Shown: piece after piece, positions 29,588 through 34,976 of the stretch | How positions within the stretch are numbered: position 1 is the stretch's first letter | How the letters are laid out: each line of letters starts with the position of its first letter | Made by a program: the position numbers and the translations under genes | NCBI GenBank assembly: GCA_024709105.1 | Contig: JANJXJ010000047.1 | Span: 1-64,000 of the forward strand | Source: Lentimicrobium sp. | GTDB taxonomy: Bacteria > Bacteroidota > Bacteroidia > Bacteroidales > Lentimicrobiaceae | Direction: 5' to 3' | DNA length: 64,000 nt | The notes under the pieces: generated by a model | Told to the model about the DNA's origin: nothing | Database searches by the model: none | What the model saw: the letters and a program-made list of their open reading frames with translations, nothing else

Positions 29588-30595
29588 ATGGAATCATCAT
29601 TTATTGCAATTGTTGCCATTGGCATAGCCTCGTTGTTCGGGCTGTGGATAATACTTTACTTTATTCCGGTAGGGCTTTGGTTCTCGGCTTTACTATCAGG
29701 GGTCAGAATTTCACTCATTCAGCTCGTTTTTATGCGCTGGAGAAAAGTTCCACCCTCAGTTATAGTAACAGCCATGATTAATGCCACCAAAGCCGGTCTT
29801 ACAATCACCCGCGATGAATTGGAAGCACACTATCTGGCCGGCGGTCGCGTAAAACTTGTGGTAAATGCGCTGATTTCTGCTGATAAAGCAAACATTCCGC
29901 TGAATTTTAAAGCAGCAACTGCCATTGACCTTGCAGGACGTGATGTTTTCGAAGCCGTTCAGATGTCAGTTAATCCTAAGGTAATCAATACTCCTCCTGT
30001 AGCAGCAGTTGCTAAAGATGGTATTCAGTTGATTGCCAAAGCAAGGGTTACTGTAAGAGCCAATATTCGCCAACTCGTTGGAGGTGCCGGTGAAGAAACC
30101 ATTCTTGCCAGGGTAGGGGAGGGCGTTGTATCCTCCATTGGTTCAGCCGATTCACACAAATCTGTACTTGAAAATCCAGACTCAATATCTAAAGTTGTTC
30201 TCTCCAAAGGACTGGATAGCGGAACAGCATTTGAAATTCTTTCAATTGATATCGCGGATATTGATGTTGGAAAGAATATAGGTGCTTATCTGCAGATGGA
30301 TCAGGCAAATGCTGATAAAAACATCGCTCAGGCCAAAGCCGAAGAAAGAAGAGCAATGGCTGTAGCCAGCGAACAGGAAATGAAAGCCAAAGCACAGGAA
30401 GCCCGTGCAAAGGTTATTGAAGCCGAAGCCGAAATTCCAAAAGCAATTGCTGATGCTTTCAGAACTGGAAATCTTGGACTTATGGATTATTATAAGTTCC
30501 AGAATATACAGTCTGATACCCGAATGAGAGATTCTATTGCCGATCCCGGTAAGCACAAACAAGGGCCAAAAGAAATCGACAACCCATTGAAATAA
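29588..30595 (+). CDS. floA: Flotillin-like protein FloA
   Basis: A 335-residue membrane-associated scaffold. A hydrophobic N-terminal segment (about 5-45) is followed by an SPFH/band-7-like domain and a long Ala/Glu-rich coiled coil (about 225-285: [20 protein letters not shown]). The sequence [20 protein letters not shown] and the general length match UPF0365/FloA. It organises detergent-resistant membrane patches and assists oligomerisation of membrane complexes in bacteria. It is cotranscribed with nfeD and ends at a strong terminator. Confidence 0.92.
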
Positions 30596-30695: not shown

Positions 30696-32903
30696 ATGAA
30701 TGCACAACTTGATCCGGCATATAAAGGATTGGTATTGCTCAAATACAAAAAATTGCTTGTTTCCTTTACGGGAGGACTAAACAAAGAAGATAAATCATTG
30801 CTCAAACGGGCATTTTTAATTGCTTTAAGCAATTATGGTTTTAAACAACATAGCAATGAGGAATCTTATTTCTCACATTCAGTGGATGTGGCAGGAATTA
30901 TTTCTGCAAATATGGGATTGGGTCTTTCTTCGGTTGTGGCGGCTTTGTTGGCCAGAGTTGACGAAAAATTGCCTGAAGTCAATGAACTTTTTAATCATGA
31001 ACGCCTGTATGATTGCAGAACAATAATCAGAAATCTGGATAAAATAAGTAAACTACCTACTGAAAAACTACCTCAGAATTCTGAAAACTTTGTCAGTCTG
31101 CTGTTAAGCCTTTCCTCTGATGTAAGGGTTGTGCTGATTAAACTTGCTGACCGCCTGCAATACATGCGTAATATTCAGTCGTTAAGTCCTGAAGTTCAGA
31201 AATTAGTATCAGTTGAGACATCAAACCTCTATGCACCCCTGGCTCACCGCCTGGGATTGTATAAAATTAAGTCGGAGCTGGATGAACTGTCACTGCACTT
31301 CTCAAAACCAGAGGTTTATAATGATCTGGTCGAAAAAATCCGCAACGAAGAAACCCGTAGCCGCAATTACCTGAATCGGTTTATTGAACCCATAAAAGCA
31401 GAATTAAACAGGTTAAACCTGAAATTTACCATAAAAAACAGGGTGAAGTCGGTTTCTTCGGTTTATTCCAAAATAAAGAAACAAAATATTGATTTTGAGG
31501 AGGTTTTTGATCTGTTTGCCATCAGGATCATTCTTGAAAGCTCAGCTGAAATGGAGAAATCTGATTGCTGGAAGGCTTATTCGGTGGTTACTAATCTTTA
31601 TACCCCGGAAACAAGCCGCATGCGCGACTGGATTACTATTCCCCGCCCGAATGGCTATGAATCTCTCCATATAACTGTTTCAGGGCCTGATGACAGATGG
31701 GTGGAAGTACAGATAAGAACCAAAAGGATGGACGAAGAGGCCGAGATGGGTAATGCTGCTCACTGGAGGTATAAAGGTCAGAAAGGAGCCAAAGACAATA
31801 CTGAGTGGTTGAATAACATTAGAAAAATACTTGAAAATCCTGCAGATTCAGAAGAAGCATTATCTTCCGGCAGCGGTGTGCAGGCACCTGATAATCAGAT
31901 TTATGTTTTTACTCCTGAGGGTGATGTTAAAAAGTTAAGATCAGGCAGTACTCTGCTGGACTTTGCTTTTGAAGTCCACACCAATATTGGTTCAAAATGC
32001 TCAGGTGGCAGGGTTAATGGTAAAAATGTACCTATCAGGCATGTTTTGAAAAGCGGTGATCTGGTTGAAGTTATGACATCAAAAAATCAGAATCCCAATA
32101 TTGACTGGCTGGGATGGGTGGTAACCTCGAGGGCTAAAAACAAAATTAAAAGGTATCTTAAAGAAGCTGAATTTGCTCAGGCTGAAGCAGGTAAAGCAAT
32201 TTTTAAAAGAAAACTCTCGCAAATCAAAAATATTGATCACGAAGAAGCTGTTGCTAAACTGATTTCGCATTTTAAATTATCGGGGCCTTTGGATCTTTAC
32301 CAGCGCCTGGCTGATGAAAGAATTGAACCCAAACAAATTAAGGAGCTGCTCACATTAAAGGAAAAGGAGCAGGAAGCCAAACCATTAAGCAACAGACCCG
32401 TAAAAGGTTCAGATGCCGGCTTAAGCGGAAAAACTTCGGAAAATACCATTATTGTAAATGAACACTCCGAAATTGATGGTTATAAACTGGCCAGATGCTG
32501 TAATCCTGTAATGGGCGATGAAATCTTTGGTTTTATAACTGTGAGTGACGGAATAAAAATTCACAGAACCAGCTGCCCGAATGCTTCCAGAATGAGAACC
32601 CGGTATCCGTATCGTTCAATGGATGCAAAATGGTCTAATCAGGTGGAGGGTTCGTTTTTTATCGCTACTGTAAAAATCAGTGGTTTTGATCAATTGGGCA
32701 TACTTAATACCATAACTAATATGATTTCGCAGGAACTTAAAATGGATGTGCGGGGAATATCCCTTGACAGCAAAGGCGGGAAATTCGATGGCATAGTAAA
32801 AGTAAGCATCCGGGATAAAAAACATCTGGAGTTCCTTATTAAAAAGTTGCTGTCAATCAAGGGTGTGATAAAGGCTTCTAGATTAAGCAGTTCATCGCAT
32901 TAG
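30696..32903 (+). CDS. Rel-family (p)ppGpp synthetase with a degenerate hydrolase domain
   Basis: A 735-residue stringent-response enzyme. The N-terminal hydrolase fold is recognisable (HSVDVAGIISANMGLGLSSV, then LIKLADRLQYMRN with a conserved Asp) but the catalytic His-Asp pair of LLHDVVED is replaced by Ala86-Arg87 (ALLARVDEK), so ppGpp hydrolysis is not expected. The synthetase is intact (RVKSVSSVYSKIKKQ, FDLFAIRIIL, RMRDWITIPRPNGYESLH, EVQIRTKRMDEEAEMG). A TGS domain (about 415-480), a zinc-finger-type segment with ARCCNP and HRTSCPN, and a C-terminal ACT domain complete the regulatory half. This is a RelA-like monofunctional synthetase; a hydrolase should be elsewhere in the genome. Confidence 0.9.
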   Translation: MNAQLDPAYKGLVLLKYKKLLVSFTGGLNKEDKSLLKRAFLIALSNYGFKQHSNEESYFSHSVDVAGIISANMGLGLSSVVAALLARVDEKLPEVNELFNHERLYDCRTIIRNLDKISKLPTEKLPQNSENFVSLLLSLSSDVRVVLIKLADRLQYMRNIQSLSPEVQKLVSVETSNLYAPLAHRLGLYKIKSELDELSLHFSKPEVYNDLVEKIRNEETRSRNYLNRFIEPIKAELNRLNLKFTIKNRVKSVSSVYSKIKKQNIDFEEVFDLFAIRIILESSAEMEKSDCWKAYSVVTNLYTPETSRMRDWITIPRPNGYESLHITVSGPDDRWVEVQIRTKRMDEEAEMGNAAHWRYKGQKGAKDNTEWLNNIRKILENPADSEEALSSGSGVQAPDNQIYVFTPEGDVKKLRSGSTLLDFAFEVHTNIGSKCSGGRVNGKNVPIRHVLKSGDLVEVMTSKNQNPNIDWLGWVVTSRAKNKIKRYLKEAEFAQAEAGKAIFKRKLSQIKNIDHEEAVAKLISHFKLSGPLDLYQRLADERIEPKQIKELLTLKEKEQEAKPLSNRPVKGSDAGLSGKTSENTIIVNEHSEIDGYKLARCCNPVMGDEIFGFITVSDGIKIHRTSCPNASRMRTRYPYRSMDAKWSNQVEGSFFIATVKISGFDQLGILNTITNMISQELKMDVRGISLDSKGGKFDGIVKVSIRDKKHLEFLIKKLLSIKGVIKASRLSSSSH

Positions 32904-32996
32904 GTGTTTAAGTGTACAAGAATATTTCTGAAGTTTTATTAACAATTGTTAATAACTCTGGTTGATTTTCTGTTGATGTAAAATATCAAAAAATCC

Positions 32997-33027
32997 TTGA
33001 CAAAGGCCTCAGATTATTGTATCTTTG
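32997..33027 (+). promoter_or_regulatory. Promoter of the structured RNA
   Basis: TTG (32997-32999), 20 bp, then TATCTTTG (33020-33027): a full Bacteroidetes promoter that predicts a start at about 33032-33034. Confidence 0.8.
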
Positions 33028-33032
33028 TTTCA

Positions 33033-33347
33033 TCAGGCCAGCGATACGGTGAGAAACTGCGGGAGGCAACAGCAAAGGACCTAACGGTAACCATGTAGAA
33101 GCCAAACGGCCGGAAAAGTTCTAAGCCAACCGAAAGGAAAGCTGAAAACAATTCAGGTACAAACACCAAAGTCCTGACAGATGCCCTACACCTGTAGATA
33201 AAGCACTGTCAAAGGTAAGTCGGAAAGAACCCCATGGGGTGAAACATGACAAAGCACCGGAACAGTAACCTGAGGCCCCCGGAAAACTACGGTTTACCGG
33301 ACAGGCGAAAAGGGAGCAACTCGTCAAGAGTAGTTCCCTTTTCTGTT
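33033..33347 (+). ncRNA. Unidentified structured non-coding RNA, about 315 nt
   Basis: A region between rel and the HEAT-like gene with no plausible protein, a strong promoter in front and a strong terminator behind, and clearly RNA-like composition: GC-rich short helices separated by A-rich linkers (CCGAAAGG tetraloop, GAAA, AAAG). Helices I can draw include GACAG (33176-33180)/CTGTC (33206-33210) enclosing TGC/GCA and CTAC(ACCT)GTAG; CCTG (33269-33272)/CAGG (33302-33305) enclosing CCGG...AAAC(TACG)GTTT...CCGG (33279-33300); a GAAA-capped CC/GG at 33130-33137; and the palindrome ACCCCATGGGGT. I could not match it to RNase P RNA, tmRNA, 6S, SRP RNA or a known riboswitch. Its independent promoter and terminator argue for a free-standing RNA rather than a leader. 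Confidence 0.7.
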
Positions 33348-33349
33348 TT
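33307..33349 (+). terminator. Terminator of the structured RNA
   Basis: GAAAAGGGA (33307-33315) pairs with TCCCTTTTC (33335-33343), continued inward by a second short helix with one A-A mismatch, then CTGTTTTT. Confidence 0.9.
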
Positions 33350-33462: not shown

Positions 33463-33987
33463 ATGAATCCCGAAAATTATAGTCTTGAAGAGTTGCTGCT
33501 TGCCGAGCAATCAAGAGCAAATACTGATATGCTTGTGGATATTCTTAGGCAGAATCCTGCGACTTTTCCTCACTTCTGGGAAATATTTATGAAAAATTCC
33601 GATCCTGTTAGTCGCAGGGCTGCCTGGGTTATTGATTGTTTTACTGAAACCATGCCAGACTATATCAACTCCAGAGTTGAAGAACTATGTAAAAACCTTC
33701 CGGTTTTTAAAACCGATGGATTAAAACGTCATTCGATGAGGATGTTGGCGAGGTCACCTCTTCCGGAAGAAAATCTGGGAATACTTATAGATGTTTCATT
33801 CAGGTGGCTTGAATCACGAACTGAATCTGTGGCTGTGAAAATGTATTGTATACTATTACTTGAAAGAATATCAGCACTTTATCCCGAAATAAAACCTGAA
33901 CTACGCGATTTAATTGAAATTCAGATGAATGAGGCTACCCCGGGATTTATAAATATATCAAAAAAAGTACTTAAAAGACTTAAATAG
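33463..33987 (+). CDS. Helical-repeat (HEAT-like) hypothetical protein
   Basis: A 174-residue all-helical protein with paired helices of HEAT type (HFWEIFMKNSDPVSRRAAWVI, LKRHSMRMLARSPLP, AVKMYCILLLERISALYPEI, ISKKVLKRLK). No catalytic residues, signal peptide or membrane segment are visible; a protein-binding role would fit the fold. It follows the structured RNA, with 115 AT-rich non-coding bases between. I cannot name a function. Confidence 0.75.
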   Translation: MNPENYSLEELLLAEQSRANTDMLVDILRQNPATFPHFWEIFMKNSDPVSRRAAWVIDCFTETMPDYINSRVEELCKNLPVFKTDGLKRHSMRMLARSPLPEENLGILIDVSFRWLESRTESVAVKMYCILLLERISALYPEIKPELRDLIEIQMNEATPGFINISKKVLKRLK

Positions 33988-34556: not shown

Positions 34557-34856
34557 TTATTCTTCGGTTTCTGTTGAAGGTTCATTTTCAGGGAAGGTAT
34601 CCTCTGAATCCTTTTCGTCGTTGATGTCATCCAATGGATCTTCATCAGCCAGGCCCTTGGTGTCAATCTTTACAGGAACCTTAACCAGATAACTGGCATC
34701 TTCGGTATCAACTGTAATGGCATAAAAAAACTCATCACCCCGGGTTTTGACTTTGATAACATGATTGGAATAACCCAATGGATACTTCTTCCTGATTGCC
34801 TCAAGTACCTCAGGGGAGACATTGCTATAACTTACAACCAAACGCTTCTTGTCCAT
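34557..34856 (-). CDS. Small hypothetical protein with an acidic tail
   Basis: A 99-residue protein: a compact alpha/beta N-terminal part (MDKKRLVVSYSNVSPEVLEA, KVKTRGDEFFYAITVDTEDAS, YLVKVPVKI) followed by a disordered acidic tail (DDINDEKDSEDTFPENEPSTE). I chose the ATG at 34856 because the preceding stretch is AT-rich and unlike protein. There is a small conserved feel to the N-terminal half but I cannot assign a family. It lies between glgB and the DUF5362-like gene on the same strand. Confidence 0.7.
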   Translation of the reverse strand: MDKKRLVVSYSNVSPEVLEAIRKKYPLGYSNHVIKVKTRGDEFFYAITVDTEDASYLVKVPVKIDTKGLADEDPLDDINDEKDSEDTFPENEPSTETEE

Positions 34857-34976
34857 ATAAAACTGGTTAAAAAAAAGTTTACAATAATACGACGGCTTAC
34901 TCAAAAATTGTGCAAAAAGTTTGTTAAATTTTCAATAATTCTCATTTTTTTTCAGCGAGCCGGACGTTTTACAAAA

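Follow-up and report, generated by a model that had tools for sequence, protein, structure and literature searches.

What is encoded in the gap downstream of the rel gene on this Lentimicrobium contig? In the 64,000-nucleotide stretch of DNA that we analyzed (the window), a gene for a bifunctional RelA/SpoT protein (30696-32903, + strand; matches to the HD, RelA_SpoT, TGS and ACT domains) is followed on the same strand by a gene for a 174-amino-acid protein that has no Pfam match (33463-33987, +) and is kept beside the gap within the genus. The first-pass annotation had placed between them a free-standing structured RNA of a class that it could not name, possibly specific to this lineage. Sequence comparison indicates that positions 33033-33349 are an independent, conserved, structured transcription unit, and that its product is almost certainly a genuine structured RNA that acts in trans.

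The RNA gene has its own predicted promoter and terminator. The predicted transcript runs from the first helix (P1) to the T-run of the terminator (33033-33349, +); these ends are those placed by R1, a covariance model made from sequences of the genus, and they agree with the covariation described below. A TTG at -33 (32997-32999, +) and a -7 element, TATCTTTG (33020-33027, +), make up a sigma-A-type promoter, TTG-N20-TATCTTTG, with the predicted RNA start at 33033, 5 nt after the -7 element. The same geometry is kept in homologues: TANNTTTG ends 5-6 nt short of the RNA start in 113 of 117 (background rate 0.4%) and TTG lies 19-21 nt upstream of it at 100 of the 117 homologous loci, counts to be read knowing that most loci were retrieved with a TTTG-containing pattern that did not preselect the TA, the -33 TTG or the exact gap. 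The TTG/TANNTTTG arrangement matches the sigma-A-type promoter of Bacteroidota (PMC7366714; PMC9723704). At the other end, an intrinsic terminator (33307-33349, +), comprising helix 13 of the genus consensus and a T-run, is found across the family. The longest open reading frames in homologous RNAs are not conserved from species to species, which argues against a protein-coding reading. The promoter, the terminator and the noncoding character of the stretch are all as the first-pass annotation had described them. The RNA of the window also folds more stably than expected, with a minimum free energy of -96.1 kcal/mol (z = -4.45) that none of 100 dinucleotide shuffles reached.

The fold of the RNA is supported by compensatory changes. 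The first-pass annotation had suggested a covariance-model search in related Bacteroidota, and the alignment within the genus (A1, n = 11) has two-sided changes in 34 of 60 pairs, compared to 16.8 in shuffled alignments and at most 15 when the structure was slid along the alignment. The consensus is 93% paired, and at most 49% when slid. P1 joins UCAGG at the 5' end (33033-33037, +) to CCUGA (33269-33273, +), and P2 joins CGGUG (33047-33051, +) to CACCG (33255-33259, +), both with covariation. Inside P2 is a variable middle (33053-33254, +; helices 3-10 of the genus consensus) of short hairpins, some of them GNRA-capped, and A-rich linkers; it includes a GACAG/CTGTC hairpin (33176-33180 / 33206-33210, +) and a CCCC/GGGG hairpin (near 33230-33240, +). 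Between the 3' strands of P2 and P1 is a conserved single-stranded core, GAACAGUAA (33260-33268, +; AAUAACNGUA family-wide), whose alignment columns are invariant or nearly so. Beyond P1 is a 3' hairpin with a UACG tetraloop (33275-33306, +; helices 11-12), in which 8 of 10 pairs have two-sided changes. Much of the earlier description of the helices survives in the genus consensus, most of it with compensatory changes: GACAG/CTGTC with its inner CTAC/GTAG, the GAAA-capped CC/GG, CCCC/GGGG, the UACG hairpin and the terminator. One helix had to be redrawn. CCTG (33269-33272), thought to enclose the UACG hairpin by pairing with CAGG (33302-33305), instead pairs with TCAGG at the 5' end (33033-33037) to form P1, and the UACG hairpin is closed by GCC/GGC (33275-33277 / 33304-33306).

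The closing helices are conserved throughout the family and the middle is not. Among 68 sequences, P1 (YCARGY/RYYUGR) is 96.6% paired, with two-sided changes in 4 of 6 pairs, and P2, taken as GRC/GYC, is 99% paired. For the two helices together (68 distinct members), pairing is 97.4%, compared to 90.0% in shuffles and at most 48% when slid; the covariation score is 0.487 versus 0.319 in shuffles, and there are 95 two-sided cells versus 26, where the search patterns had preset purine or pyrimidine at the P1 positions, not which one, and had imposed nothing on the two inner P2 positions. The internal loop between P1 and P2, GAGNGAUAAAA / AAUAACNGUA, hardly varies. The class consensus is YCARGYGAGNGAUAAAAGRC at the 5' end and AAUAACNGUARYYUGR at the 3' end. 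The RNA of the window has P1, P2, the 3' core, a UNCG-type hairpin, the terminator and the sigma-A promoter, and its 5' core, UCAGGCCAGCGAUACGG, departs from the 5' consensus in a way peculiar to the genus. Total length ranges from 279 to 881 nt (median 488), and this variation sits in the middle, which can be aligned within a single clade only. In the R1 matches that were inspected, both ends are conserved and the middle varies, its linkers differing between lineages. Hairpins with GNRA loops are enriched 3.1-fold and those with UNCG loops 7-fold over shuffles in 70 non-redundant members, and control loops are not enriched. A separate fold of ten compact RNAs from Cyclobacteriaceae gave the same plan of P1, multibranch, UNCG hairpin and terminator.

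The first-pass annotation thought the RNA possibly specific to this lineage, but its range is wider, taking in many Bacteroidales and also Cyclobacteriaceae. By blastn, relatives were confined to the same genus (approximately 70% identity). R1 found the RNA in 17 of 19 genomes of the genus, including all 13 of good quality; at the level of the order, 34 of 198 genomes had it. A model of the 3' end (R2) detected it in 56 of 247 Bacteroidales genomes, representing 40 of 173 genera. With the same model, a further family, f128, was clearly positive in a sample of the phylum. We also scanned GTDB genomes with a pattern for the 5' motif and a remnant of the promoter, TTTGN{3,7}YCARGYSAGNGATAAAAG, and obtained at least 119 stretches; among the matches listed, nearly all are from Bacteroidota, and those that have the RNA are in that phylum or in a few metagenome-assembled genomes (MAGs) labelled Chlorobiota. 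The carriers among the matches listed include Draconibacterium, Maribellus, Sunxiuqinia, Tangfeifania, Lentimicrobium and many MAGs in Bacteroidales, and Cecembia, Mariniradius, Cognataquiflexum, Aquiflexum and Pleomorphovibrio in Cyclobacteriaceae. Approximately ten pattern matches lacked the 3' core and were discarded; most of them came from unrelated bacteria, among them Acinetobacter and Lacticaseibacillus. R1, trained on the genus of the window alone, recovered the RNAs of Cyclobacteriaceae and Draconibacterium with rough E-values down to 1e-19, matched the compact Cyclobacteriaceae RNAs end to end (1e-17 to 1e-19, also rough), and had zero matches in 13 unrelated viral control loci.

We rejected a phage or mobile origin: no IMG/VR viral stretch had the 5' pattern and INPHARED gave no match. 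Among 13 genomes taken from named records, eight have one copy, four have two, and one has three, the third weak. Paired copies 0.5 to 2 kb apart were seen at L145, L170, G172:C1 208861-209449, G089:C28 15403-17065 and G055:C55, and such adjacency suggests tandem duplication. Approximately three-quarters of the sampled Bacteroidales genomes had no match under strict filters that lose weak matches, so that absence from any given genome is uncertain; the patchy distribution indicates that the RNA is not universally essential. Separately, RNAs from f121, a bacterial family of the same taxonomic class (L193, L196, L198 and L231-L234), differ in their conserved 5' end, TCAAGAACGANGTACTTTGACA, but share the plan: a P1 of TCAAG/CTTGR (3' end ACTTGR), a UACG hairpin and a terminator, with no Rfam match. 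They may be distantly related, or they may make up another family that has yet to be named.

A palindrome that the first-pass annotation did not mention is conserved upstream of the promoter. The 20-bp perfect palindrome TTATTAACAATTGTTAATAA (32936-32955), a putative operator centered at approximately -87 from the RNA start, is the sole match within 3 mismatches in the 64 kb (0.03 expected). Its half site, TGTTRATAA/TTATYAACA, is present in 104 of 124 upstream regions compared to 2 of 202 background regions; nearly all of these half sites lie at -85 to -98 and together form GTTATTAACAATTGTTAATAAC. The palindrome is followed by half-site-like repeats, GGTTGATTT (32960-32968) and TGTTGATGT (32971-32979; both +), and 82 aligned Bacteroidales loci have weaker half sites in the same place, with the consensus tGTt.ata....GT..A.a. 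In Cyclobacteriaceae, 9 of 13 loci have TGTGGATAA or TGTGAATAA at a similar position, and we take these to be DnaA boxes (canonical form TGTGNATAA). The palindromic element is very likely an operator to which a protein binds.

We think that the gene probably specifies a trans-acting structured noncoding RNA of a new Bacteroidota class, working by means of its fold and controlled from the operator. Action through the three-dimensional fold is itself a probable, not a certain, part of this proposal. Binding or catalysis would take place at the invariant internal loop, GAGNGAUAAAA / AAUAACNGUA, which might be sarcin-ricin-like, and the variable arms would be a stabilizing periphery. The RNA would then serve as a scaffold, as the RNA of a ribonucleoprotein or as an RNA-only assembly, in the style of OLE, raiA/ModT or GOLLD, and not as an antisense regulator, and its amount would be set by a transcription factor at the palindrome approximately 87 bp upstream. 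In Cyclobacteriaceae the site equals a DnaA box, which makes it plausible that the RNA is tied to growth or replication state; DnaA itself is a conceivable but doubtful binding protein for the operator.

The strongest competitor is an antisense small RNA, in which the structured body would confer stability and pairing with mRNAs would be left to a variable stretch that is exposed. A free-standing gene with its own promoter and terminator, a conserved putative operator, close duplicates in some genomes and linkers that vary by lineage would all suit such a regulator. However, lengths of 280-880 nt are long for a small RNA, the invariant positions do not form an open seed but lie in the internal loop that P1 and P2 close off, and the enrichment of GNRA and UNCG hairpins points to a tertiary architecture. 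We consider antisense regulation unlikely.

Less likely still is that the locus serves the control of replication, with the DnaA-box-like array as the functional part, for DnaA titration or reactivation, and the RNA modulating the array. The array of half sites is at a fixed position, and the canonical box, TGTGNATAA, is in 9 of the 13 Cyclobacteriaceae loci. Additionally, in 2.54 Mb of the complete chromosome CP070687.1 (86% of which was covered) the exact palindrome occurs just twice, at 1,085,644 and 2,146,799; one occurrence precedes the RNA and the other, at 2,146,799, is in an AT-rich cluster of four boxes, which could be another regulated promoter or a candidate oriC. That cluster is between LOG-family-like and BatD-like genes, near an smpB-like gene. 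On the other side, the Bacteroidales half site, TGTTRATAA, differs from the canonical DnaA box, and the RNA is conserved at least as well as the array. A more far-reaching proposal, an RNA class of up to 0.9 kb wired to DnaA through the upstream box array and coupling replication or growth state to physiology through a fold-based ribonucleoprotein, is speculative and on present comparisons unlikely.

A diverged housekeeping RNA (6S, RNase P RNA, tmRNA or SRP RNA) is highly improbable. Vertical inheritance and copy number are housekeeping-like, and the Rfam 6S models are silent in the genome, although the controls make that silence uninformative: RF00013 and RF01685 gave no match here, RF00013 was silent in the Bacteroides control and RF01685 in every control. 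The fold argues against 6S, since the consensus is a multibranch closed by P1 and P2 with eight inner helices, unlike the 6S rod with its central bubble. The RNase P RNA model (RF00010) had no match in the window, and the genome encodes its RNase P RNA on another contig (C98:8459-8856; 246 bits, E 9e-81). ARAGORN found no tmRNA or tRNA in the window, and with no tRNA-like part there we rejected tmRNA as well. Most relatives have no detected copy, unlike a universal RNA. Nor did Rfam offer any other identity. A cmscan of the window at the gathering thresholds of Rfam 15 gave no match, a permissive scan of the region gave only a resemblance to the terminator and chance-level matches, and scans of 18 homologue loci gave nothing at E <= 1. 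The best of these, a minus-strand match to STnc320 (E 0.18), covers the terminator only and was set aside. The raiA motif (RF03072) was not among the matches to the region at E <= 10 or to the 18 homologue loci at E <= 1, and the OLE, ROOL and GOLLD models had no match in the window or homologue scans. Our search, which covered open literature, found no description of the RNA. The cmscan proposed in the first-pass annotation returned no family in the window or the scanned homologues. This result, the conserved promoter and terminator, and the covariation bear out the view taken there of a free-standing structured RNA whose class has no name. Judged by these model searches, the RNA family is new, with no kinship found to any of 4227 Rfam families.

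As a cis-acting element, a 3' untranslated region or a leader, the RNA would instead serve the rel operon or the gene downstream. This would fit its place between rel and the 174-amino-acid gene, on the same strand and conserved within the genus, but is largely refuted by its own promoter and terminator and by the different neighbors, in varying orientation, that it has in other lineages. Among those neighbors, named by sequence inspection and not by a family scan, are rplQ-eno together with a UbiD-like gene (one clade), a fucosidase-like gene (Draconibacterium) and a biotin-carboxylase-like gene. The ppGpp synthetase neighbor noted in the first-pass annotation is indeed RelA/SpoT by its domains. 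It recurs in several families, and rel adjoins the RNA on either side in genus g1 and at six other loci of the order (L030, L032, L035, L041, L046 and L049); it is not universal, and adjacency alone does not establish a functional link. We found no gene neighbor common to all loci, and the RNA is therefore most likely trans-acting. In the window, a flotillin-like floA gene (PF12127, E 1e-162; 29588-30595, +) is directly upstream of rel, and a second small protein with no Pfam match (34557-34904, -) is conserved near the RNA in the genus.

Free-standing, broadly conserved classes of large structured bacterial RNA are rare, and most of those that have been characterized were surprising. The family may have escaped notice because it is conserved at its ends and not in its middle, and because it is found mainly in environmental Bacteroidota. 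Since cultured organisms are among its carriers (Draconibacterium orientale, Aquiflexum, Mariniradius and Cecembia), expression and structure are directly testable, as are partners and the phenotype of a deletion, and the conserved putative operator is an immediate handle on the regulator.

The broad kind of molecule is already known: large structured bacterial RNAs of unknown function, as in OLE, ROOL, GOLLD and raiA/ModT (PMC12286853, PMC11706538). Flavo-1, Bacteroidales-1 and Bacteroides-1 (PMC2864571) are, like the new RNA, orphan RNA motifs of Bacteroidota, and none of them matches it in Rfam scans. 6S RNA, including 6S-Flavo (RF01685; PMC2864571), is also trans-acting, structured, transcribed from its own promoter and present in Bacteroidota. 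However, 6S RNA is rod-shaped, with a bubble at its center, whereas the new RNA is a closed multibranch with GNRA hairpins and no covariance-model match. The raiA motif RNA, or ModT (RF03072; PMC11706538), is likewise free-standing, structured and widely conserved within its phyla, with a function that is only partly known. It has been reported mostly in Bacillota and Actinomycetota (PMC11706538), whereas the new RNA is in Bacteroidota and has no match to it in Rfam scans. ROOL and GOLLD are found in phages and prophages, often near tRNA islands, in contrast to the new RNA, which was not in the phage and viral sets and has no tRNA in the window. OLE, ROOL and GOLLD RNAs assemble into homo-oligomers. 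The new class also differs from OLE, ROOL and GOLLD in having no covariance-model match, no constant protein neighbor and mostly shorter members; what it has in common with these three (PMC12286853) is that it is large, structured and free-standing, with many hairpins and conserved cores.
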